The translations under genes were made by a program, and so were the position numbers. Below the pieces are notes generated by a model that worked only from the letters and a program-made list of their open reading frames with translations, did no database searches and had not been told where the DNA came from. Shown here one piece after another: positions 25,164 to 59,840 of a DNA stretch of 64,000 nucleotides (position 1 is its first letter; the number at the start of each line of letters is the position of its first letter). The stretch is from an uncultured Nitrospiraceae bacterium (lineage in GTDB: Bacteria; Nitrospirota; Thermodesulfovibrionia; Thermodesulfovibrionales; Dissulfurispiraceae): assembly GCA_903822005.1 (NCBI GenBank), contig CAIJNL010000023.1, forward strand, positions 1-64,000. Reading direction: 5' to 3'.

Positions 25164-26006
25164 ATGAAAACTATCAGATTATTGTTCATCTTCGCGATCA
25201 TACTCACCGCAGGCGTGGCACAGGGACATCAGGATAGTGCTGCTGAGAATCCGGGTATTTCAGAAAAGACCGGTGAGTACGCCCCGCTCAACCTTACCTT
25301 CCGCGATGAAAACGATTATCCGTTGAAATTAAGCTCAATAGTTACAAAGCCGACTATTCTTGTTCTGGCCTATTTTACCTGTGACAGCATCTGTCCCCAG
25401 ATATTGGGTGGGCTCGCAAACGCTGTCGGCAATATTAAGCTGCTTCCCGGAAAGGACTATAAAATTATAACAATCAGCTTTGATGAAGATGATATGCCGC
25501 TGCTTGCAAAGCAACAGAAGGTAAACTATCTCAAGGCAACCGGCCTGAATATTCCCTCCGATGCATGGCACTTTCTGACCGGCGACAGGGAAAACATTAA
25601 ACGGCTGACTGAGGCAGTTGGATTCCGGTTTAAAAAAGAGCTGATAACGGGCACGATCGGCTTCAGCACGCGTCGGGAGTCCCGCGGTTTTACACACCCG
25701 TCTGTCCTGATATTCTTAGCTCCGGATGGCAAGATCACGCGGTATCTCTATGTCGAGCAGTCCCACTACGGAACTCTTGCGCCGATCGCTTTTTCTACTG
25801 TAGATATTACGGCCTCTCTCCAGGCGGCAGCGAAGGGAAAGGCATGGCCGCGCACAATAAACCCGCTTCTCCTCTGTTTCCCCGGATTGTCGGCCAACGA
25901 GGCCCGTTTCTATACCTTGACGGCAAGTATCGGAACAGCGACGCTGATCTGCATACTCGCCTTTTATATTTATCTCAGGCGCACCAGCAAAAAAAGGGAG
26001 CAGTGA
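25164..26006 (+). CDS. SCO1/SenC-type copper chaperone for cytochrome c oxidase
   Basis: A thioredoxin-fold copper protein that helps build the CuA site of subunit II. About 280 residues: an N-terminal signal peptide or anchor, the copper-binding CDSICP (Cys73, Cys77) after ILVLAYFT, the conserved His in GFTHPS, and an extra C-terminal helix (about 250-270) that could anchor it. ATG 25164 has GGGGAGG 14 bases upstream, rather far; GTG 25149 overlaps that site and is less likely. It is the first gene of the caa3 operon, the usual place for SCO. Confidence 0.9.
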   Translation: MKTIRLLFIFAIILTAGVAQGHQDSAAENPGISEKTGEYAPLNLTFRDENDYPLKLSSIVTKPTILVLAYFTCDSICPQILGGLANAVGNIKLLPGKDYKIITISFDEDDMPLLAKQQKVNYLKATGLNIPSDAWHFLTGDRENIKRLTEAVGFRFKKELITGTIGFSTRRESRGFTHPSVLIFLAPDGKITRYLYVEQSHYGTLAPIAFSTVDITASLQAAAKGKAWPRTINPLLLCFPGLSANEARFYTLTASIGTATLICILAFYIYLRRTSKKREQ

Positions 26007-26023
26007 CAACAGGAGTGCCTCAG

Positions 26024-27628
26024 ATGAATGAAATAGAAGAAAAGAGTTTTTATCAGGCAATGGGCAGATATCGCGGCATCCTTGGCTGGCTCATATCAAC
26101 GGACCATAAAAAAATCGGGATAATGTACCTTGGGGCGCTTCTCTGCTTTTTTTCTGTTGGAGTTACGCTCGGTATTCTCATACGTCTCAGCCTGATAGCA
26201 CCCGGCATGTTTTTAAGTGCCCAGCACTATAATCAGCTGTTTACAGTCCATGGGATTGTAATGATATTCCTCTTCATCATTCCTGGTATCCCGGTAGCTT
26301 TTGGCAATTTTTTATTGCCTCTGATGATTGGGGCCAAAGATGTTGCTTTTCCGCGTCTTAACCGGTTTACATGGTGGCTCTACCTGGCCGGAGCATTTAT
26401 CGTGCTGCTTGCGCTCGCAACCGGAGGCGGACCCCCTGATACGGGATGGACTTTTTACGCGCCTTACAGCATAGAGAGCAAGACCAATGTATCACTCGCG
26501 GTATTCGGGGTTTTTGTCCTCGGCTTTTCCTCAATTTTCACAGGTCTGAATTTTGTAACGACAATCCATCGTATGAGGGCGCCGGGGATGGAATGGTTCC
26601 GCATGCCGCTTTTCGTTTGGACTCTGTATGCCACCGGATGGGTGCAGATTCTCGCTACACCTGTTCTGGCCATAACGCTTCTCTTCATAGTGCTGGGCAG
26701 ATTTATCGGCATCGGCTTCTTCGACCCAACGCGGGGCGGAGATCCCATTCTTTACGAGCATCTCTTCTGGATTTATTCACATCCGGCTGTCTATATCATG
26801 GTGCTGCCTGCAATGGGCATCATAAGCGAGATAGTACCGGTGTTTGCACGAAAAAGGATCTTCGGTTACCATGCCATAGCACTGTCCGCTCTGGCAATAG
26901 CCAGCGTAGGATATCTGGTCTGGGGACATCACATGTTTACCAGCGGCATGAGTGATACGGCCAGGGTCATCTTTTCCTTTATCACCTTTCTCGTTGCAGT
27001 GCCGAGCGGGGTAAAGATATTCAACTGGGTGTCTACCCTTTATAAAGGATCGATAGAGGTAGCCGCTCCGCTTCTGTTCGCGCTCTCCTTTATATTCCTT
27101 TTTTCGATAGGAGGGCTGACAGGGCTGATTATCGGATCGCTTGCCCCCAGCCTGCACCTACATGGCACCTATTTCATAGTTGCGCATTTCCATTACGTAA
27201 TGTTCGGGGGCGCTGGCTTTTCCTTCTTTGCCGGACTGCATTACTGGTTTCCAAAGATGTTCGGAAAGATGTACAGCGAAAAATGGGCCAAGAGAGGCTG
27301 GTTTTTTCTCTTTGTCGGATTTAATGTCCTTTATTTCAGCATGTTCATCCTTGGATATGAGGGCATGCCGCGCAGATATTTTGAACCGCCCCCGCAGTAT
27401 CACGGATGGTCGGTGATCTCCACTATCGGCTCCTGGCTTCTTGCCACAGGTATCCTGATCATCCTCAGCAATCTCGTAAGGGCGCTCTTCAAGGGCGAGA
27501 AGGCTTCAGCGAATCCATGGGGAGGCAGGACACTCGAATGGACAGTTTCCTCGCCGCCTCCACGAGAAAATTTTATTCATGGGCCGGTGATTGCAACTGA
27601 TCCATACGGTTTTGAGGGGAAGAAGTGA
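26024..27628 (+). CDS. ctaD: Heme-copper (A2-type caa3) oxidase subunit I
   Basis: Catalytic subunit of a proton-pumping terminal oxidase with low-spin heme, heme-CuB site and 12 helices. 534 residues. The CuB/heme ligands sit in FWIYSHPAVYIMVLPAMG, VWGHHMFTSGM and the helix X region HFHYVMFGGAGFSFFAGLHYWFP. The YSHPAVY sequence, in place of the GHPEVY of A1 oxidases, identifies the A2 subclass, where Tyr-Ser replaces the glutamate at the end of the D-channel (established for Rhodothermus and Thermus caa3). ATG 26024 has AGGAG at 9 bases. It lies between SCO and subunit III. Confidence 0.95.
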   Translation: MNEIEEKSFYQAMGRYRGILGWLISTDHKKIGIMYLGALLCFFSVGVTLGILIRLSLIAPGMFLSAQHYNQLFTVHGIVMIFLFIIPGIPVAFGNFLLPLMIGAKDVAFPRLNRFTWWLYLAGAFIVLLALATGGGPPDTGWTFYAPYSIESKTNVSLAVFGVFVLGFSSIFTGLNFVTTIHRMRAPGMEWFRMPLFVWTLYATGWVQILATPVLAITLLFIVLGRFIGIGFFDPTRGGDPILYEHLFWIYSHPAVYIMVLPAMGIISEIVPVFARKRIFGYHAIALSALAIASVGYLVWGHHMFTSGMSDTARVIFSFITFLVAVPSGVKIFNWVSTLYKGSIEVAAPLLFALSFIFLFSIGGLTGLIIGSLAPSLHLHGTYFIVAHFHYVMFGGAGFSFFAGLHYWFPKMFGKMYSEKWAKRGWFFLFVGFNVLYFSMFILGYEGMPRRYFEPPPQYHGWSVISTIGSWLLATGILIILSNLVRALFKGEKASANPWGGRTLEWTVSSPPPRENFIHGPVIATDPYGFEGKK

Positions 27629-27629
27629 T

Positions 27630-28250
27630 ATGATAGAGCCTTTGCAAGCAAAAGGTGAGAGCGGCATCGATTACACAGGCAAGAAGATCGGCATGTGGAT
27701 ATTCCTGTTTACGGAGCTGCTCTTTTTTGGCGGCATGTTTCTGCTCTATTCGATTTTCCGGGCGCAGTATCCGTCAGAATTTCATATCTCTGCGCGTGAA
27801 GAGAATCTTGTCCTGGGCACAATAAATACTTTTGCTCTGCTGACAAGCAGCCTGTTCATAGCACTCTCAATTGCCGCCATCAGAAGGGGGAACAAAAAAC
27901 AGTCGCTATGGCTTCAGGGGCTTACGATATTATGCGGCATTATATTTCTGGTCATAAAATATTTTGAATGGAGTGAGAAAATAGCAAAAGGCATATATCC
28001 GGATTCACCTGTGCTGCTGGGCATGGGAAGCGGAGAAACGCTTTTCTTCGGACTCTATTATATGATGACTGGTATCCACGGGCTGCATGTGCTGATAGGC
28101 ATTCTGGTAATAGCGGTAATGCTGCATTTTACGAGACAGGATACAATCACCTCACAGAATTATGTGAAGCTTGAGAACACCGGACTTTATTGGCACTTTG
28201 TCGATATAGTCTGGATTTATCTGTTCCCGCTTTTTTATCTCATTACATAG
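27630..28250 (+). CDS. ctaE: Cytochrome c oxidase subunit III
   Basis: A 206-residue membrane subunit with five predicted helices, the bacterial short form. It carries GMWIFLFTELLFFGGMFLLY, NTFALLTSSLFIALS, the family motif FFGLYYMMTGIHGLHVLIG and the end GLYWHFVDIVWIYLFPLFYL. ATG 27630 overlaps nothing and starts one base after the subunit I stop (TGATATG), so the two are tightly coupled. Confidence 0.93.
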   Translation: MIEPLQAKGESGIDYTGKKIGMWIFLFTELLFFGGMFLLYSIFRAQYPSEFHISAREENLVLGTINTFALLTSSLFIALSIAAIRRGNKKQSLWLQGLTILCGIIFLVIKYFEWSEKIAKGIYPDSPVLLGMGSGETLFFGLYYMMTGIHGLHVLIGILVIAVMLHFTRQDTITSQNYVKLENTGLYWHFVDIVWIYLFPLFYLIT

Positions 28251-28261
28251 GAGCAGGCCGG

Positions 28262-28552
28262 GTGAGAGAGAATATAGAGGCGCATCAGGTTGCTTACATG
28301 ACATATGTCGTTGTATGGGTAATGCTCCTGGCGCTTCTGGGCCTGACAATCACTGTGGTGAGGCTTAACCTGTTCGAAAATTACAGTGTACTGGCAAGCC
28401 TCATAATAGCTTCACTTAAATCGCTGCTGGTTCTCTTTTATTTCATGCATCTTAAATATGAAGGACGGCTGGTGAAAGGCATGCTCGCGCTTGCGGTAGG
28501 CACCCTCACGCTTATTATCATACTCACCTTTTCGGATGTCTGGTACCGGTGA
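28262..28552 (+). CDS. ctaF: Cytochrome c oxidase subunit IV (caa3 type)
   Basis: A 96-residue small subunit with three hydrophobic helices: YVVVWVMLLALLGLTITVV, VLASLIIASLKSLLVLFYFMHLKYE and a C-terminal helix. LKSLLVLFYFMHLKYE is the family hallmark. It starts at GTG 28262 with AGGAG nine bases upstream. Its TGA overlaps the ATG of subunit II. Confidence 0.88.
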   Translation: MRENIEAHQVAYMTYVVVWVMLLALLGLTITVVRLNLFENYSVLASLIIASLKSLLVLFYFMHLKYEGRLVKGMLALAVGTLTLIIILTFSDVWYR

Positions 28553-29463
28553 TGCCGACAATGTTACTCGGACCCGCAAATACATCCGGAAGAGTCGACG
28601 AAACATTTATATACATAGTCGGCATTTCAGCAGTCCTGCTGCTCCTTGTAACCGGTTGCATGATATATTTTGTTGTCAGATACAGCAGGAAAAGGCATCC
28701 ACAGGCTGAAGAGGTAAAGGAGAGTGTCTGGCTGGAGGTCTTCTGGACAGTTGTGCCCACTCTCCTGGCGCTTTCGATGTTCTATTTCGGATGGGTAAAT
28801 TTTAAATATATTCGTACGCCTGTCAAAGACGCCATAAGTGTTAATGTTGTAGCCAGCAAATGGGCATGGCTTTTTATTTATGAAAATGGGAAACGCAGTG
28901 ATGTTCTTCGCGTGCCGGTAAACAAGCCGGTAAGGCTGGTTTTGACTTCGGCTGACGTCATTCACAGCCTCTACATTCCGGCCTTCAGGATCAAAGAGGA
29001 TTGTGTTCCGGGCATAAAAACTTATCTCGGATTCAATGCGAATGAAACCGGGACATACGACATCTTTTGCACTGAATATTGCGGCGTTGGACATTCCCAA
29101 ATGCTTTCGAAGGTTATCGTGATATCGGGTGAAGAATTTGCGAAATGGTATGAAACAACTGAGGCTTCCGGAGCGGCAAAAAAAGGGCAGTTGTTACTTC
29201 AGGACAAAGGCTGCTTGGGCTGCCACAGCATTGACGGGTCCAAAAAGGCCGGACCGTCTTTCAAGGGCCTTTATAGGGCTCGGGAGACAGTTATCACTAA
29301 TGGCGCAGAACGCACTGTCATTGTTGATGATGCATATATCAAGGACTATGTACGTCATCCAAATATTGATATTGTTAAGGGATATCAGCCTATCATGCCT
29401 GTGATACCTGTTACCGATGCTGAACTTGCCCTGCTCGTTGAATACATAAAGACATTGAAATGA
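28552..29463 (+). CDS. ctaC: Cytochrome c oxidase subunit II with fused cytochrome c (caa3)
   Basis: A 303-residue subunit. Two N-terminal helices are followed by a cupredoxin domain with the binuclear CuA ligands CTEYCGVGHSQM (Cys173, Cys177, His181, Met184) and upstream His in DVIHSLYI. A class I cytochrome c domain has CLGCH (about 220) and a distal Met in the PIMPVIPVT segment. The fused heme makes this a caa3-type enzyme that accepts electrons from soluble cytochromes. It is placed last among the oxidase genes (order I-III-IV-II), unlike the common II-I-III-IV. Confidence 0.95.
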   Translation: MPTMLLGPANTSGRVDETFIYIVGISAVLLLLVTGCMIYFVVRYSRKRHPQAEEVKESVWLEVFWTVVPTLLALSMFYFGWVNFKYIRTPVKDAISVNVVASKWAWLFIYENGKRSDVLRVPVNKPVRLVLTSADVIHSLYIPAFRIKEDCVPGIKTYLGFNANETGTYDIFCTEYCGVGHSQMLSKVIVISGEEFAKWYETTEASGAAKKGQLLLQDKGCLGCHSIDGSKKAGPSFKGLYRARETVITNGAERTVIVDDAYIKDYVRHPNIDIVKGYQPIMPVIPVTDAELALLVEYIKTLK

Positions 29464-30401
29464 AAAATATCAGACCAGGCCGGATATCCGATTACATGCA
29501 ATTATGCAGGCCGGGGATATCTTTATTTGCCGCGTTTTCTTCCGGCTGCAGTTACATGCTGTCCGGTCAGCACAATATATCGCTGCTATCCCTGCTGTTG
29601 CTGTCAGGCGGCGTTTTTGTGCTTGCTTCAGGAGCTTCCTGTATGAACCAGTACCAGGAGAAGGCCACAGATGCCCTGATGGCGCGTACCAGACGAAGGC
29701 CGCTTCCCTCCGGTAGGCTCAGCCCTCGTCACGCGTTATATCTTGCTTCCGCGGCCGTAATGGCCGGTCTCAGCATACTCATTGCATCGGCCGGCCCGAT
29801 TTCAGCCGCTATCGGACTATTCGCCCTCATATGGTACAACGGCATTTATACTTATCTGAAAAGAATCACCGCATTTGCGGCTGTTCCCGGGGGACTGACT
29901 GGTTCACTCATACCTGCCATAGGCTGGGCGGCTGGCGGAGGCAGCCTGACCGACCCGCGCCTGCTTGCCCTGTCCATTTTCTTTGGAATGTGGCAGGTGC
30001 CCCATTTCTGGCTGCTTGCCTTTGAACATGGCAAGGAATATGAAGCGGCAGGGCTTCCCTCTCTCACCCAAATATTCGGGCCGGAACAGATAACGAGGCT
30101 CATTTTTGCCTGGCTGGCAGCCACCGCTGTATGCGGGCTGATGCTCTGCCTTTTCAGCATGGCTTACACATCCGTAGTCCGTTATTTCATACTTGCTTTT
30201 TCAATATGGCTAGTATGGCAGGGAGGCAGATTTATGGTATCGAACGGGAAAGGGAGCAGTTTATTATTCGTAAAGCTAAATATTTATGTGGTTGCAATCT
30301 TGGGCCTGCTTTGTTCTGACACTCTATATACTCGCAGTATTGATCTCATACCCCGTTTCATTGACCAAGTCGCTTTGAAGGCGCACTATTTCCGTTTATA
30401 A
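29460..30401 (+). CDS. ctaB: Protoheme IX farnesyltransferase (heme O synthase)
   Basis: A UbiA-family membrane enzyme that adds farnesyl to heme b to give heme O for the oxidase. 313 residues, about eight helices. The first polyprenyl-diphosphate site reads NQYQEKATDALMARTRRRPLPSGR: Asn, Asp and the ARTRRRPLPSGR signature are present, with Glu replacing one Asp of the usual NxxxD. The second site is less clear. It overlaps subunit II by 4 bases (ATGA), which confirms its assignment to this operon. No ctaA is visible, so the heme type (O or A) is open. Confidence 0.88.
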   Translation: MKNIRPGRISDYMQLCRPGISLFAAFSSGCSYMLSGQHNISLLSLLLLSGGVFVLASGASCMNQYQEKATDALMARTRRRPLPSGRLSPRHALYLASAAVMAGLSILIASAGPISAAIGLFALIWYNGIYTYLKRITAFAAVPGGLTGSLIPAIGWAAGGGSLTDPRLLALSIFFGMWQVPHFWLLAFEHGKEYEAAGLPSLTQIFGPEQITRLIFAWLAATAVCGLMLCLFSMAYTSVVRYFILAFSIWLVWQGGRFMVSNGKGSSLLFVKLNIYVVAILGLLCSDTLYTRSIDLIPRFIDQVALKAHYFRL

Positions 30402-51744: not shown

Positions 51745-52959
51745 TCAGACGGCGATAAGGTCCGCATATCTGAAAAACGGCGAAACGAGCTTTTCGACAT
51801 TTTCAATCTCCATCTGCCTTAACACGAGCCCGCCGATCACGCCCGCCTGCCTTATATCTCCAAGACAGATAACTCCGCGCGCGATTTTTCCGCGCATTAC
51901 AATTTTACGGTAAGTTCCGTTACGCCGGTCAATGAAGATATCGTCACCCGGCTGGCCAATGACATCTCCAACTGAAACAAGTGGAATGCCTGCTATTTCC
52001 ACCGAATTCATGGCGACACTCCCTCCAAAAAGCGTCTTGTATCCGGCCATGTTATAGGCTGCCACACTCCCTTGTTCTACGGCAACAGGCCATGTGGCCT
52101 GTATTGTCTGACTTCCGGACAGGTTATCTACTGCCTCGGCACAATCGCCGGCAGCGAAGATGTCCTGGTCCGACGTCTGCTGAAATTCGTTGACCGTTAT
52201 CCCCTTCCCGACGGCAAGTCCTGCTGCGGCTGCCAGTTCGGTGTTGGGCCTTACGCCGAGAGCCATGATAACCATGTCAGCAGGCATTGTTCTGCCAGCC
52301 ACCTTCACTCCCTTCACAGCCCCGTCCGAAACTTCAATTTCTTCCATAGCGGAGCCGGTGATTATCTCAACCCCGCAGCTCCTCACTTTTTCAGCCAGCA
52401 GACCAGAGCCCTCGCTGTCGAGCTGACGGGGCATTATACTCGCCATTTTTTCCACTAACGTCACCTTCAGGCCGCGAGCGGCAAGCGCAAGTGCCGTCTT
52501 GAGACCGATCAGCCCCGCCCCGACGACAACAACAGACTTCGCAGTACCGGCAGCAGCTGCAATGTCTCTCGCCTGGGCCATTGTCCACAAACTATATACG
52601 CCTTTCGCACCAATGCCCGGAATCGCCGGTAAAACCGATGATGACCCTGTAGCCAGCAACAATTTCCCGTAGCGTAGCACTTTACCAGATTTCAGGCTTA
52701 CCGTTTTATCCCCAGGCGAAATTGCCTCAACCATCTCACCCATGCGGCAATCTATGCCAAGATTCACAAAATCCTCAGCTTGCTGGAGAACAGAAGCGGA
52801 AGGCTCATACTTTCCGGCAATGATGTCCGGCAGGTCTATCCGGCTGTAGAAATAGTCCTGCTCTCCGGTAATTATGGTTACCGGGGTGAGTGGGGCCATC
52901 TGTCTAAGCAGATTGGCAGCCGCGGTCCCCGCCGCCCCCTGACCAATTATGATATGCAT
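51745..52959 (-). CDS. NAD(P)/FAD-dependent oxidoreductase (FNOR of a CooS-CooF type set)
   Basis: A 404-residue pyridine-nucleotide-disulfide-family reductase. The FAD site is IIIGQGAAGTAAAN at the N-terminus, the NAD site is VVVVGAGLIGLKTALALA (about 143-160), and the second FAD segment is FAAGDCAEA. It resembles rubredoxin or NADH-dependent reductases. The gene order CooF - CooS - FNOR is an established arrangement in CO-dehydrogenase operons, in which electrons pass from ferredoxin to NAD(P). Here the CooS is a shortened form. Start ATG 52959 has GGAGG upstream, 16 bases after the CooS-like gene. Confidence 0.87.
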   Translation of the reverse strand: MHIIIGQGAAGTAAANLLRQMAPLTPVTIITGEQDYFYSRIDLPDIIAGKYEPSASVLQQAEDFVNLGIDCRMGEMVEAISPGDKTVSLKSGKVLRYGKLLLATGSSSVLPAIPGIGAKGVYSLWTMAQARDIAAAAGTAKSVVVVGAGLIGLKTALALAARGLKVTLVEKMASIMPRQLDSEGSGLLAEKVRSCGVEIITGSAMEEIEVSDGAVKGVKVAGRTMPADMVIMALGVRPNTELAAAAGLAVGKGITVNEFQQTSDQDIFAAGDCAEAVDNLSGSQTIQATWPVAVEQGSVAAYNMAGYKTLFGGSVAMNSVEIAGIPLVSVGDVIGQPGDDIFIDRRNGTYRKIVMRGKIARGVICLGDIRQAGVIGGLVLRQMEIENVEKLVSPFFRYADLIAV

Positions 52960-52975
52960 CGCCCTACCTCCACTC

Positions 52976-54430
52976 TTATTTTACCGCCGCAGCTTCGCCA
53001 AAAACACCGGATACCTTCCCGAAGTCTGATACTGACCGCAACTTCCCCTTCATCCCGAGATCAGTGTCGGAGGTTGCCTCTCCCGAATCAATAAACGTGG
53101 TAATGCCGGCTGACACGAAGGCAATCGAAGTAGCCAGTATTTTGTTATGGACCGTCTCAGGCATGAAAGCATAAACCGGCATACCGCTCTCTTTGACCGC
53201 CCGCGCAATCGCGAGAAATTCTCCGGCGTCATTGCACGCGCCGATATAAAGAACCGGCGGCACGCCAGCCGGCAGCACGCCCTTGAGAGCAGTTCCTGCC
53301 GCGTAATCCGCACTGCACATGCCTGTCTTCGCGAGCGCGGCACCTGCACACCCGCCGGTGACTATGAAATATTTGTCGGCCAACAGCTTTTCGACGAGCT
53401 GAACAAATTGCGCGTCCTGGGTCTCTGACACGGAACCGCATCCGCCGATATACGCAGTGCCCTTCAGTGAACCTTTGCCATAGGCAGCATTCAGGGCCGT
53501 AAAAAGGGGCTTATTTCCGGCAGCGGTGTAACCATAGCATACCTTCTCGGCACACGCCGGAATATCGACACTTTTTCCCTTGCGTATCTGGTAGGCGTCA
53601 GAAGCAGTTTTGACCGCATTGTTTATTTCACTTTCGCTGGACAGATCAGATGCCTTTATGACCACCACATTGGCCGCGCGGGCCAGCGTCAGAAGAGCTG
53701 GCATTACGCACTGTGACCCTGCGACCAGCAGGTCAACTGACCCTGTGACAAGAGGGGCTTCCTGCGAACAATAATTTGTCAGCACCGGCATGTTCAACCC
53801 GCCATTGGTCTCGCTGCCGCACATTGCTGTAATGTTTACCGGGGTACCGCTCTTTGCCGCAGCTTCCGTAAGTTTTTTTATGATCTTTGGAGCTATATGC
53901 CCATGCAGCACAATATTCACAGAATCTGCCTTCAGGGAACCCAGGTTCGCCGTTGTTTCAGAGGGCTTTGACTTTCCATAGGTCATTTCCTTTACGGAGC
54001 TGATAGCCTTCAGCGCAGATGCGGCCGCGCCGCCTATTTCGGAAAGACGGGCAGAAAGATCAGACGGTGCCAGCATTGCATCTCTTGATATGCATAAGGT
54101 TTTAAAGACAGAGTTGTCAATTTCAGCCTCAAATTCGGCTGCGAGGCCTGCCAATGCTACAGCGCCGTCAATTGCCTGACCTAGAAAGCGGCTGGCAACA
54201 AGTTCCTGCTGGCTGCGTCCGCATACTGAACGCCCGGGATCTGCATCGAACGGGCTCGTCCGGCAGGGGCCGTCAGCGCAGTCAGTACAGCATATGCTCA
54301 TGCGGCCAAACCCGCACTGCGGCTGCATGGCTTCAGACCGGTCCCACGCAAGTTCTATATGCTGACGATTTGCCTTTACAAGAACGGCATTGGTTGCTTT
54401 ATCAATTGATTTTTTCTTTACGACTTTCAT
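52976..54430 (-). CDS. Shortened Ni-Fe-S carbon monoxide dehydrogenase-like protein (CooS-like)
   Basis: A 484-residue CooS homolog, ~150 shorter than normal CooS. Cysteines at 39, 47, 48, 51, 56 and 70 (QCGFGRMSICCTDCADGPC ... VCG) match D- and B-cluster ligands in the same spacing as CooS-II. C-cluster candidates are all present: His in LHGHIAPKI (178), then Cys in MCGSETNG, SQCVMPALL, GGCGSVSE, TGGCAGAA and IGACNDAG, plus the catalytic-type Lys in VHNK. About 83 residues are missing between the B-cluster and the first C-cluster ligand, and the proton-relay His of AAHSDHGR in CooS-II is replaced by AGLAAEF. So cluster C may form, but CO oxidation is uncertain. Start ATG 54430. It lies between CooF and FNOR. 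Confidence 0.86.
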   Translation of the reverse strand: MKVVKKKSIDKATNAVLVKANRQHIELAWDRSEAMQPQCGFGRMSICCTDCADGPCRTSPFDADPGRSVCGRSQQELVASRFLGQAIDGAVALAGLAAEFEAEIDNSVFKTLCISRDAMLAPSDLSARLSEIGGAAASALKAISSVKEMTYGKSKPSETTANLGSLKADSVNIVLHGHIAPKIIKKLTEAAAKSGTPVNITAMCGSETNGGLNMPVLTNYCSQEAPLVTGSVDLLVAGSQCVMPALLTLARAANVVVIKASDLSSESEINNAVKTASDAYQIRKGKSVDIPACAEKVCYGYTAAGNKPLFTALNAAYGKGSLKGTAYIGGCGSVSETQDAQFVQLVEKLLADKYFIVTGGCAGAALAKTGMCSADYAAGTALKGVLPAGVPPVLYIGACNDAGEFLAIARAVKESGMPVYAFMPETVHNKILATSIAFVSAGITTFIDSGEATSDTDLGMKGKLRSVSDFGKVSGVFGEAAAVK

Positions 54431-54433
54431 GAT

Positions 54434-54988
54434 TTATCGATCCTCCCGTAATAATTCGATGCTGACAATACCGGATGGTTTGCCTTCCGTCAGGGAGGCT
54501 GCCATTACGGCTATGCTGCCGCGCCTTGCCGTCAGTACCTTACTGTAGCTTGACTCGTCACCATATACAAGCGCACCAGTCGGGCAGGAAGCCACGCAGG
54601 CAGGCTCCTCCATATGCATGCAGGCATCACACTTTAGCGCAACCTTATATTCTGTCGAAGGCGTTATGCAGCCAAAAGGACAGGCCATGACGCACATCCA
54701 GCAGCCGCGGCATTTATCCTGGTTGGCAGCTATATTCCCTTTTTCGGTATCGCGCTGCATGGCGCCTGCAGGGCAAACTTTAAGGCACATGGCATCCTGA
54801 CAATGGCGGCACTGAAGCGGAAAACTCGAACCGCTGGGCCCGAAAACCCCCACTCTCGCGACCGGCTTCGGATCTTCCTTTACTGCCTCGACCAGCATTT
54901 TGGATACCGAACCGCGCTCCACGGCGCACTGCAACTCGCATGTCTTGCAGCCGAGGCATTTATCACTATCAACCCAAACACGTTTCAT
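54434..54988 (-). CDS. CooF-like ferredoxin with four 4Fe-4S clusters
   Basis: A 184-residue electron carrier of the HycB/CooF family. Cluster motifs appear as CLGCKTCELQC, CRHCQDAMCLKVCPAGAM, CRGCWMCVMACPFGC and CDACMHMEEPACVASCPTGAL. It should take electrons from the adjacent CooS-like protein and pass them to the FAD/NAD oxidoreductase. GGAGG lies before ATG 54988. It ends four bases from the CooS-like gene. Confidence 0.9.
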   Translation of the reverse strand: MKRVWVDSDKCLGCKTCELQCAVERGSVSKMLVEAVKEDPKPVARVGVFGPSGSSFPLQCRHCQDAMCLKVCPAGAMQRDTEKGNIAANQDKCRGCWMCVMACPFGCITPSTEYKVALKCDACMHMEEPACVASCPTGALVYGDESSYSKVLTARRGSIAVMAASLTEGKPSGIVSIELLREDR

Positions 54989-55020: not shown

Positions 55021-55662
55021 CTATGCAACTGTTACGCCCCAAAGGCATAATATCTCTTCCAGCATCTCCTCTGCCCTTACCGGGTTGAAGACGCCGCACT
55101 GGCAGGGCTTTGAGAGTTCTTCCGCGGCTTCACGGGCCGTGCGTCGCCCGGCCTTTATGTCCTCGATCATCTTTATTACGAGATTGAACGGGACCTGGCC
55201 GTGTCCGCACATTGTGCTGAACCGGAGGACATCTTCGTCAGGCAGGCGTTCCGTTTTACCCCAGATTCCCAGTGAGGTTTCGCAGGTATGCCTGTTAAGT
55301 CCCGCTTCTTTGCAGCATGAATCCACATCATCCAGCAGCCCGGAGACAATGACAGAAATCCCGAGGTCCGCCTCCTTTATCGCCTGCATCGCCTTGATCA
55401 ACGTTTCACGGTTGTCGAACACGCCGTGAACTATGGACGTGTCCTGTGTGCTGTTGACTATCACCTCTTTTGACCTGATGAAGCTGTTGCCGGTCCGCAT
55501 GTCGCCGAGATTAACAGGATTGAAGCTGCTGACGATCTCGAGAAAACGCTTTAATTTTACCTTTGAGTCTACCTCGTTGATGCCCTTTGCCGACATGGCG
55601 AAGATGACGTAGTCGTTCTTGAGGCTTTCGGAGGTTCCCCTTCTGTGTAATGTGTGGCTCAT
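55021..55662 (-). CDS. Conserved Cys-rich protein of unknown function
   Basis: A 213-residue protein that I do not recognise. Notable conserved-looking parts are SGLLDDVDSCCKEAGLNRHT with a CC pair, FSTMCGHGQVPFNLV, and the C-terminal CQCGVFNPVRAEEMLEE. The Cys spacing could hold a metal or Fe-S centre. No signal peptide. Its start overlaps the preceding gene by ATGA, so the two are coupled and probably work together. It sits between the ferredoxin-domain protein and CooF. Confidence 0.75.
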   Translation of the reverse strand: MSHTLHRRGTSESLKNDYVIFAMSAKGINEVDSKVKLKRFLEIVSSFNPVNLGDMRTGNSFIRSKEVIVNSTQDTSIVHGVFDNRETLIKAMQAIKEADLGISVIVSGLLDDVDSCCKEAGLNRHTCETSLGIWGKTERLPDEDVLRFSTMCGHGQVPFNLVIKMIEDIKAGRRTAREAAEELSKPCQCGVFNPVRAEEMLEEILCLWGVTVA

Positions 55663-56405
55663 TTCTGCACCTCCTCTAAAAAGAACGGCCTGCCAAGACC
55701 TACATTGGTTTTACCGTTTGGCGTCGGCACCACTCCTGCTTCACGTGCCAGGTCAAAAGCAAGCGTCTTGTTGTCAGACCTGACCTTGCAGGTAAGGTCG
55801 AAACTGCATACGGTCGAAATTTCTTTTGTTACTTTTTTCACAACAGCTATTATTTCCGGTACCCTTTCCAGGGGGACTGTCATCTCGATGATGCCCGACA
55901 GCACTTTCTCATCCATCAGTTCGGGATTCATCTTCCCGGTGGCCTTGTCAATCATCAGTCCGGTGATCGGGTTCTGACGCTCGAAAGCTATGCCGCCGAG
56001 TGCCGCAATTGCCATGGCGACCTTTTCGATGTCCCTGAAACGAGCGCCGGTGCTGGGACGGCCCATTTCAATAGCCATGCCGGCCTCGCCGAACTTGAAC
56101 CGGCCGGTTATATCGTTGGTTTTCATCTCTTCGGTTCCCCTGCCGGGCACGCGTGTCTCCTTGTGCTCTATAAGGGGATTGCTGAAGGTGCCTCTGACCG
56201 AGCGGGGCCATTCAGGCTTGGGTTCGTATAAAGCCTCCACCGGGCATACTTCGGCCCTGTAACAGACTCCGCAGTCCACGCATTCGTGCTGGTCCACTTC
56301 GGCGCAGACCTTTCCATGCCTTTCACGCATGAATGCGATTGCCCCCATGGTGCAGTAGGTACGGCAACGCCCGCATCCAACACATTTGGTCTCATCTACT
56401 TTCAC
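55659..56405 (-). CDS. Di-cluster ferredoxin fused to an unrecognised domain
   Basis: A 248-residue protein. The N-terminus has two 4Fe-4S motifs, CVGCGRCRTYC and CVDCGVCYRAEVC. Residues ~85-248 form a domain that I cannot name, with FKFGEAGMAIEMGRPSTGARF, LDEKVLSGIIEMTVPLERVP and a Cys pair in STVCSFDLTCKV. Start GTG 56405 with AAGGAG upstream. It is the first gene of the run that leads to CooF and the CooS-like protein. A redox or electron-bifurcating role with the next Cys-rich protein is a guess. Confidence 0.78.
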   Translation of the reverse strand: MKVDETKCVGCGRCRTYCTMGAIAFMRERHGKVCAEVDQHECVDCGVCYRAEVCPVEALYEPKPEWPRSVRGTFSNPLIEHKETRVPGRGTEEMKTNDITGRFKFGEAGMAIEMGRPSTGARFRDIEKVAMAIAALGGIAFERQNPITGLMIDKATGKMNPELMDEKVLSGIIEMTVPLERVPEIIAVVKKVTKEISTVCSFDLTCKVRSDNKTLAFDLAREAGVVPTPNGKTNVGLGRPFFLEEVQK

Positions 56406-56562
56406 TCTTTTTCTCCTTTCTGCCGGATCAATGTATCTATAATTCCTGCTCCCGGATGTCAGGAATAATATCCGTTACCAACCGCTCCATACTTTATTAT
56501 TGACACTGAATATTTGATCCTGAATTTCATCCTGTATAACCATGGAAGTCTTAATCATTCAG

Positions 56563-56607
56563 TCAGGATGATTCCGGGCATCACATGCCTGCCCGAAATC
56601 ATCCTGA
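56563..56607 (-). other. Long hairpin between the decarboxylase and the ferredoxin-domain gene
   Basis: TCAGGATGATTCCGGGCA (56563-56580) pairs with TGCCCGAAATCATCCTGA (56590-56607): an 18-bp stem with one mismatch and a 9-base loop. No T run follows on either strand, so it may be an attenuator, an RNA-stability element or a processing site that separates the two parts of the operon. Confidence 0.6.
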
Positions 56608-57602: not shown

Positions 57603-57619
57603 AGCAAGAAAAATACCAA
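57603..57619 (-). promoter_or_regulatory. Candidate sigma-54 (-24/-12) promoter
   Basis: On the minus strand TTGGTAT-N-TTGCT: GG and GC are exactly ten bases apart (CCAA at 57616-57619, AGCAA at 57603-57607 on the plus strand). It lies ~150 bases upstream of the decarboxylase and next to a gene for a sigma-54 activator. The -24 half is imperfect. Confidence 0.55.
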
Positions 57620-57756: not shown

Positions 57757-59670
57757 TCATGAAAGGTCTTCACACTCTTTAAGACGTCTCCATAGCGTGG
57801 TCCGGCTGATCCCGAGTTTGGCGGCCGCCTTACCATAGTGATAATTGGACTCCTCCAGGACCTGAATCAGCAGCGAATGGTTTAAATTACCTCTTCCGGC
57901 TTCAGCATTAAGGGATCTATTATTCGCTCCAACCTTTAATGCACTCTTCTTGGCAGAAGATTGCAGCAGCATGCTCTCAACATCTTCGGGCCTGATGCCT
58001 CCGATCTTTCCGAGCACGGCCAGGCGCTCTGCCACGTTGCGCAATTCCCGCACATTTCCAGGCCAGTGATAATCACGCAGGATCTTCTGTGTATCGAAAT
58101 CTAGTTCCATGAAATCTTTGTTTGAGCGCAGACAGTAGAATTTGAGGAAATGCATCATCATAGGCACAATATCCTCTGGCCTTTCCCTGAGCGGAGGAAC
58201 TACCAGCCTCAGTATGTCTACTCTGTAATAAAGGTCTTCACGGAAATGACTTTCCTGCATCAGTGCGAAGAGGTCCCTGTTCGTTGCAGTGAAGATGCGG
58301 ACGTCGACAGGAATCACACGGTCATCCCCAAGACGCATTATTTCGCGCTCCTGAAGCACGCGGAGAAGCCTTCCCTGGAGCTTTGGTGAAATTTCGGAGA
58401 TCTCATCGAGAAAGATCGTGCCACGATGACCCATCTCAAAGAGTCCCATTTTACCACCCTTCGAAGCGCCCGTAAACGCGCCCTCGGCATAGCCGAACAG
58501 TTCGCTTTCGAGCAGATTTTCGGGCAGCGCAGCGCAGTTGACGGCGACGAACGGTCCTTTTCTCCTGCTGCTCGCATTATGTATGCTCTGCGCGAAAATC
58601 TCCTTGCCTGTGCCGCTCTCACCCATTATCAGCACGTTCGAGTTGACCTCGCTGTACTCCTTCGCAACAGCTATCGCCCTCTTGATTGCAAGACTGTCGC
58701 CGAGGATATCGGAAAATGAGAGCTTTGCCACATGGCCGCGCTGATAGATTATCTGGCGTATCTTGCCTTCCAGTTCCTGAATCGCGGCCACAGGCTGGAA
58801 TGTGGCCACAGCGCCGGCTGTCAGGTTTCCGACCACAATCGGGACCCTGTTTACAGCCAGCTGCTGCCCATTAATCGACACTATTTCACCGAGTTCGGTG
58901 CGCCCGGTCTCGAGAACGCGCTTCAACCCGAGCTGCGGCAGGATTTTTTCAGCAAGATGTCCTATGGGATCATCCTTAAGATCAGCCAGTTTCATGGCAG
59001 CCGCATTTGCAAGATTTATGACCCCGGCCGAATCAACAGCCACTACCCCTTCAACCGAATAATCGAGTATGGCCCTGAACTGTTCGGCACGCTCCTGCTC
59101 CCATCGCCGTATCCGGGCCACGCGCTTTGCCTCTCTCAATGCGTGATAGATGGCTTCGCGGCCCGTTCTGATGAAGACTGTGCTCATCCCAAGCCTTTCG
59201 GCAATGAGGGTGGACATTACCCCTCCGATCACAACAGTTATGCCGCTGTCCTTTATGCGCTGGATGCTCGGCTCAGCTTCGTCCTCATCCTGGACCTCAG
59301 CCACAACCAGCTCTATGTCCATAATATCTTCAATGCCCTTTACGCCGTAAATCATGTCCCGGTACCCGACAATGCCGACCTTCCTGACAGCAAACTTTTC
59401 CTGGCATTCCTGGACCGCACGCAGAATATCATAGCCGCTTACCGGCAGGTCAACAACAGGCGTTCCTTTCACGAGCCTCTTGGCAGCCGCAGCCGTCACA
59501 CCGCGGGCCACAATAACGTCCGTGTTTTCACCCTTCCATTTGGCGATTTCACGCACATAATTGGCCAAAATAATTTCGAGTTCCCATTCGCCGTCACAGA
59601 GCTCATCAAAAATTTCTTTTACAGTGACGCCGATTTCCGGATAAGGAATAAAAAAAGTTATCTTGCCCAC
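57757..59670 (-). CDS. PrpR_N-type sigma-54-dependent transcriptional activator
   Basis: A 637-residue enhancer-binding protein. A PrpR_N sensor domain (about 1-175; FFIPYPEIGVTVKEI, GVTAAAAKRLVKGTPVVDL) is of the type that binds small carboxylates or their CoA-derived metabolites. A PAS domain (about 195-300) precedes the AAA+ domain, which has Walker A GESGTGKE (348), the sigma-54 contact loop GAFTGAS (~397) and Walker B FLDEISEIS. The C-terminal Fis-type helix-turn-helix is KAAAKLGISRTTLWRRLKE. GTG 59670 is chosen because AAGGGAG lies just upstream. It likely controls the decarboxylase-to-dehydrogenase genes. Confidence 0.92.
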   Translation of the reverse strand: MGKITFFIPYPEIGVTVKEIFDELCDGEWELEIILANYVREIAKWKGENTDVIVARGVTAAAAKRLVKGTPVVDLPVSGYDILRAVQECQEKFAVRKVGIVGYRDMIYGVKGIEDIMDIELVVAEVQDEDEAEPSIQRIKDSGITVVIGGVMSTLIAERLGMSTVFIRTGREAIYHALREAKRVARIRRWEQERAEQFRAILDYSVEGVVAVDSAGVINLANAAAMKLADLKDDPIGHLAEKILPQLGLKRVLETGRTELGEIVSINGQQLAVNRVPIVVGNLTAGAVATFQPVAAIQELEGKIRQIIYQRGHVAKLSFSDILGDSLAIKRAIAVAKEYSEVNSNVLIMGESGTGKEIFAQSIHNASSRRKGPFVAVNCAALPENLLESELFGYAEGAFTGASKGGKMGLFEMGHRGTIFLDEISEISPKLQGRLLRVLQEREIMRLGDDRVIPVDVRIFTATNRDLFALMQESHFREDLYYRVDILRLVVPPLRERPEDIVPMMMHFLKFYCLRSNKDFMELDFDTQKILRDYHWPGNVRELRNVAERLAVLGKIGGIRPEDVESMLLQSSAKKSALKVGANNRSLNAEAGRGNLNHSLLIQVLEESNYHYGKAAAKLGISRTTLWRRLKECEDLS

Positions 59671-59840
59671 AAAATCTCCCTTCAAGATGCCTGCTGCCGC
59701 ACAGCTTGAGCGCATAGCTGAGTTAGTCTACGCCGGAAAACTGATCAAACGCAAGACAGCCATTGTGCCATGGCCTTGATTGAAGAGGTAGTCCCCATTG
59801 TTTGGACAGTCTTGGGGCGGATAGTACCACAGGATCAGAT

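Follow-up and report, generated by a model that had tools for sequence, protein, structure and literature searches.

The window, a stretch of 64,000 nucleotides from contig CAIJNL010000023.1 of an uncultured Nitrospiraceae bacterium, contains an operon of five genes on the minus strand. In the 5' to 3' direction, they encode a 248-aa double 4Fe-4S protein, a 213-aa protein, CooF, a short CooS-like protein (mini-CooS), and FNOR, and the intergenic gaps are -4, 32, 3, and 16 bases. The 248-aa protein (55659..56405) is composed of an N-terminal 2x[4Fe-4S] ferredoxin domain and an unannotated C-terminal domain. Its gene starts with GTG, shares 4 bases with the following gene, and is likely the first of the operon. 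The 213-aa protein (55021..55662) represents an unannotated family, in which Cys117/152/187/189 and His6/125/154 are invariant among five homologues. The CooF-like 4Fe-4S polyferredoxin (54434..54988, 184 aa) is encoded 3 bases upstream of mini-CooS, and FNOR, an FAD/NAD(P) pyridine nucleotide-disulfide oxidoreductase (51745..52959, 404 aa), is encoded 16 bases downstream. The mini-CooS gene, the fourth of the operon, had been noticed as an open reading frame at 52976..54430 in an earlier reading of the sequence alone (the sequence-only reading). The frame is real and intact, and codes for 484 aa on the minus strand. The flanking CooF and FNOR fit the remark in that reading that electron transfer seems intended.

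Upstream of the operon, a PrpR-type sigma-54 activator is encoded on the same strand at 57757..59715, and it is possible that this activator regulates the region. A sigma-54-like site, TGGTATTTTTCTTGCT, is seen at 57603-57618, between the PrpR-type gene and an acetolactate decarboxylase gene; in a scan of the window for sigma-54 promoters, matches occur at the chance frequency, with no excess. The acetolactate decarboxylase gene is separated from the mini-CooS operon by a region with a strong 18-bp inverted repeat (56561-56607), which has no clear T-run and whose RNA fold is -34.2 kcal/mol (z -5.1). The 3' end of a 23S rRNA gene occupies positions 1-91 of the window, at the contig edge. ORFs at 25844-30401 resemble, by eye, cytochrome c oxidase subunits and haem farnesyltransferase; based on this resemblance, the organism may respire oxygen despite its anaerobic C1 genes.

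Mini-CooS matches the Pfam family Prismane/CODH with an E-value of 1.2e-42. Its score against TIGR01702, the CODH model of NCBIfam, is 175.6 bits, well below the curated cut-off of 478. Its AlphaFold2 model, which is biased to the CooS fold because the alignment used (A4, with 28 full-length CooS proteins) consists of CooS proteins, has a mean pLDDT of 78.9 and a pTM of 0.83. The pLDDT is below 50 at residues 34-62, the D/B cluster loop. Superposition of a predicted structure on CooS-II had been suggested as a check, and the model does superpose (Z 33, rmsd 2.4-2.5 A over about 466 residues). The values for CODH-II are Z 33.3 and an rmsd of 2.4 A over 466 residues, and those for a class III hybrid cluster protein (HCP; 7e0l) are Z 27.1 and 3.7 A over 392 residues. 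The profile match and the predicted model together establish the CODH fold of mini-CooS.

The numbering of CooS-II was transferred to alignment A4 via an aligned CooS-II-like protein (L017; offset 15). Cys39/47 of the D-cluster and Cys48/51/56/70 of the B-cluster show exactly the CooS-II spacing, as had been claimed. The sequence-only reading also credited the protein with every expected C-cluster ligand and the lysine. This holds for His178, Cys241, Cys331, Cys361, Cys399, and Lys430, which align with His261, Cys333, Cys446, Cys476, Cys526, and the catalytic Lys563, respectively. It does not hold for the Cys294-Cys295 pair, which is reduced to the single Cys204. CC is seen at this site in 28/28 full-length CooS proteins, and also in AcsA proteins of relatives, but in neither of the two minis. 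The single-Cys site is ITAMCGSE in the window mini and FSSLCGNE in the mini of Anaerospora hongkongensis, the only other mini found, with two residues deleted. Of six C-cluster ligands (His261, Cys295, Cys333, Cys446, Cys476, and Cys526), five are present in the mini, and Cys295 corresponds to Cys204 or is absent. Glu207 aligns with the invariant Glu299 and the deletion falls at 295-296, so there is no Glu replacing Cys295. The D/B-cluster Cys, His178, Cys204/241/331/361/399, and Lys430 are all conserved in the Anaerospora mini.

Other residues conserved in full-length CooS are lost from both minis. His93 and His96, seen in 28/28 full-length proteins, are deleted along with the whole of residues 93-122, which bears out the claimed absence of the His proton relay. 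Asp219 (27/28) is also deleted, and Ile567 (28/28) is changed to Thr; these two losses were not mentioned earlier. The deficit of about 83 residues noted in the sequence-only reading is correct, the distance from Cys70 to the His being 108 versus 191 in CooS-II. It is, however, not a single missing helical segment as proposed there. The deletions include 93-122, 146-176, and 198-219, and the model retains helices 74-99 and 122-151. Residues 262-269, 295-296, 356-369, 412-420, and C-terminal parts are missing as well, and the total is 153 residues.

The Cys294-Cys295 site has been studied in several CODHs. Cys295 binds Fe1, and Glu at 295 marks CooS-V, from which both Ni and CO activity are absent; the C295A and C295E variants of CODH-II are likewise Ni-deficient and without CO activity (PMC9311411). 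Among CODHs, the first Cys of the pair (Cys301 in DvCODH, aligned with Ch294) is strictly conserved. DvCODH C301S is Ni-free, inactive, and not activatable, and the equivalent Moorella mutant is inactive and seemingly lacks an intact C-cluster (PMC6168284). Each Cys of the pair is thus needed for Ni in characterised CODHs, and the mini lacks one such Cys, whichever was kept. Because the published mutants of either Cys are Ni-free and inactive, canonical CO chemistry is unlikely for mini-CooS. The idea that the protein carries out a CO-independent or impaired reaction at a metal centre of the CODH type, first based on the His relay, is strengthened by the changes at the Cys pair, Asp219, and Ile567, while its other element, a Ni-Fe-S centre, is insecure, since loss of either Cys gives a Ni-free enzyme (PMC6168284, PMC9311411).

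Only one mini (L001) was found among 37 loci recovered from 84,980 species genomes, by a scan with exact 8-residue patterns that reaches close relatives only. It is the mini of Anaerospora hongkongensis (L001:10001-11413), which has 470 aa and is 45% identical to the window mini. Among the sampled genomes of the phylum (1/396) and of the order (1/176), the window's own is the one with a mini (E<=1e-40). A CooS (L043) from a genome of this order (G089) is identical to one from a Nitrospirae MAG (L004), which points to Nitrospirota as the phylum. No further mini was found in 33 genomes with full-length CooS, a set without a positive control, or on plasmids, and a family search around Anaerospora gave no match besides Anaerospora itself. 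The Anaerospora genome (G405) also encodes two full-length CODHs and a CooS-V-like protein (L062), which has Cys-Glu for Cys294-Cys295 and a long N-terminal extension.

The Anaerospora mini is accompanied by the same four partners, in the order CooF, mini-CooS, FNOR, 4Fe-4S protein, and 213-aa type. The identities between the two modules are 65% for CooF, 52% for FNOR, 51% for the 4Fe-4S protein, and 46% for the 213-aa type. Nearly every full-length CooS locus has a neighbouring CooF, and about a third have a neighbouring FNOR. The pair of the 213-aa and 248-aa families adjoins both minis and none of the compared full-length CooS loci, whose flanks differ in length. cooC is absent from both mini operons. 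Searches of Pfam and NCBIfam with the two families gave nothing beyond Fer4, and profile searches of PDB gave ferredoxin domains or no match; fold matches of the 248-aa protein model were discarded, its mean pLDDT being 47. A second copy of the pair is present in the window's genome (L077:8578-10149; G000:C33) without CODH, where its neighbours are a PrpR-type regulator, a MatC-type carrier, and a 2-oxoacid:ferredoxin oxidoreductase (POR). Three further genomes of this phylum carry distant homologues of the pair, again without CODH (L078:7498-9002, L079:2151-3703, and L080:3153-4657), and two of these adjoin TRAP-transporter-like genes. The occurrence of the pair without CODH indicates a separable module, which is probably an organic-acid related Fe-S module.

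In the tree, the two minis group together as a clade with a support of 100/100. Its stem measures 3.89 changes per site, versus 0.77 for the AcsA group, and the position of this clade among CooS has a support of 85/64 only. The phylogeny that would have explained the protein by simple sequencing loss, a position inside full-length CooS, was not recovered. Sequencing or assembly loss was rejected based on the identical deletions in a mini from another phylum and the very long stem of the clade. A foreign contig in the bin was also rejected, as the window and the other contigs of the genome share their tetranucleotide signature (r 0.92-0.95). In 465 full-length module pairs, which are not mutually independent, CooS exceeds CooF in conservation by 12 points on average, whereas the mini pair falls short of its CooF by 20 points. 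This reversal indicates altered constraint on mini-CooS. Divergence faster than that of its own CooF would agree with a degenerate CODH heading for loss and kept by chance with the operon, but the ORF is intact, and the deletions, the cluster ligands, the Lys, and the four partners are common to two phyla at 45% identity. Such degeneration is very unlikely. Mini-CooS belongs genuinely to the CODH/HCP scaffold, of which it is an ancient, shortened form.

The reading favoured here is that mini-CooS would be a non-CODH, NAD(P)H-linked redox enzyme on a CODH scaffold, whose C-site lacks or does not use the canonical Ni-Fe C-cluster (probability roughly 0.55). It is based on the single Cys, the deletion of His93, His96, and Asp219, the change of Ile567 to Thr, and the low TIGR01702 score, together with the superposition on CODH-II and, weaker, on HCP, the long-stem clade, the altered constraint, and the five-gene module. 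The comparison is between two minis, and the mini-CooS of Thermosinus stands outside it. Against this reading, Lys563 and all but one of the six C-cluster ligands are kept, among them Cys526, which binds Ni, Cys204 could yet act as the Fe1 ligand, the CooF/FNOR companions are of the same kinds as those of true CooS, and the metal-cluster motif of mini-CooS has been described as complete (PMC8776680).

The alternative of a true but slow or specialised CODH draws on the same retained equivalents (His261, Cys333, Cys446, Cys476, Cys526, and Lys563). Here Cys204 would serve as Cys295, Ni would be supplied via CooC encoded elsewhere, another residue (e.g., His428 near Lys430) would act as the relay, and electrons from CO would reach NAD(P)+ through CooF and FNOR. 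CooS-CooF-FNOR is a known CO-to-NAD(P)H module (PMC8776680), in keeping with the frequency of CooF and FNOR near full-length CooS, and cooC does exist in the window's genome. But neither mini operon has cooC, and one Cys of the pair, His93, His96, Asp219, and Ile567 have been lost together. A true CODH is thus considered rather unlikely.

Mini-CooS is predicted to form a homodimer, and electrons would follow a path that links NAD(P)H via FNOR, CooF, and the D/B clusters to the C-site. The residues suggest that the canonical Ni-Fe C-cluster is unformed or unused, and the protein would then be no normal CO dehydrogenase. The likeliest reaction could be the reduction of a small molecule, as in HCP or CooS-V, or another two-electron reaction, linked to NAD(P)H. 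The products of 55021-56405, both of Fe-S type, might cooperate. It is possible, though less likely than not, that the minis are Ni-free or rebuilt-cluster NAD(P)H-linked enzymes, not CODHs, which act with these two unnamed Fe-S-type families in a conserved module.

Mini-CooS is the sole CooS-family gene of its genome, in which the other weak match is an HCP-like protein. On a different contig, the genome contains the acs operon cooC-acsE-acsD-acsC-acsB, without acsA, in continuous sequence (L085:3306-9660; G000:C11). In a genome of the same genus and five other family members (six examined), acsA is located immediately 3' of acsB. AcsB of the window's genome is 60-63% identical to those of relatives, versus at least 73% among the relatives, and this gap is wider than for AcsC, AcsD, AcsE, and CooC. 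The absence of acsA from an otherwise intact operon, in a genome with one CooS-family gene, would be in line with mini-CooS having replaced AcsA and producing or removing CO for the organism's acetyl-CoA synthase. However, acs operons without acsA (acsE-D-C-B, with or without cooC) are also seen in three further genomes of the order (L093, L094, and L095), and no CODH was found elsewhere in these genomes, one of which is a single contig. These genomes indicate that the loss of acsA is independent of carrying a mini. Anaerospora has a full acs operon with acsA plus a mini, and the separate contigs and the catalytic residues absent from the mini speak against the replacement as well, which is very improbable.

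The name mini-CooS dates from 2012, and the group was assigned to CODH clade G in 2022 (PMC8776680); its type member is WP_007288589 of Thermosinus carboxydivorans (Techtmann 2012, cited in PMC8776680). A 2026 operon survey omitted clade G (PMC13056359). No measurement of activity was found in the literature for any member. The 484-aa window protein is short and CooS-like, has most cluster motifs, and falls outside the full-length sequences; it is a further member of this small, already named, uncharacterised group. New here are a member from Nitrospirota, a five-gene module conserved with Anaerospora, and a mini as the sole CooS homologue in an acs genome lacking acsA. So far, mini-CooS proteins have been counted as Ni-CODHs because of their ligand motif. 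If the absent Cys, His relay, and Asp/Ile mean that they have no Ni C-cluster, the CODH scaffold would have turned to different chemistry again, after HCP and CooS-V, and the minis should be removed from surveys of CO metabolism. They also provide a natural experiment on the residues that a C-cluster requires.

Among known systems, mini-CooS of Thermosinus carboxydivorans is likewise a short, divergent CooS with a cluster-ligand motif, a likeness by description and not by sequence; the window mini differs in belonging to Nitrospirota and in being the only CooS homologue of its genome. The Anaerospora mini shares the identical deletions, the single Cys, and the five-gene set, but the gene order differs and the host carries three full-length CODH-family genes besides. 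With CooS-II of Carboxydothermus hydrogenoformans, a Ni-CODH of structural group F-1, the mini has in common the fold, the D/B Cys, five of the six C-cluster ligands, and Lys563; it differs in being some 153 residues shorter and in having lost His93/96, Asp219, Ile567, and one Cys of 294-295. CooS-V of C. hydrogenoformans, which has an Fe-S-O hybrid cluster and no CO activity, also combines the CODH scaffold with an altered Cys294/295 site. CooS-V has Glu at 295 and is of full length, whereas the mini has a deletion at the site. The class III HCP (7e0l) has a short scaffold of the common superfamily (Z 27) and is a weaker match than CODH; the CooS-type N-terminal D/B motifs belong to the mini.
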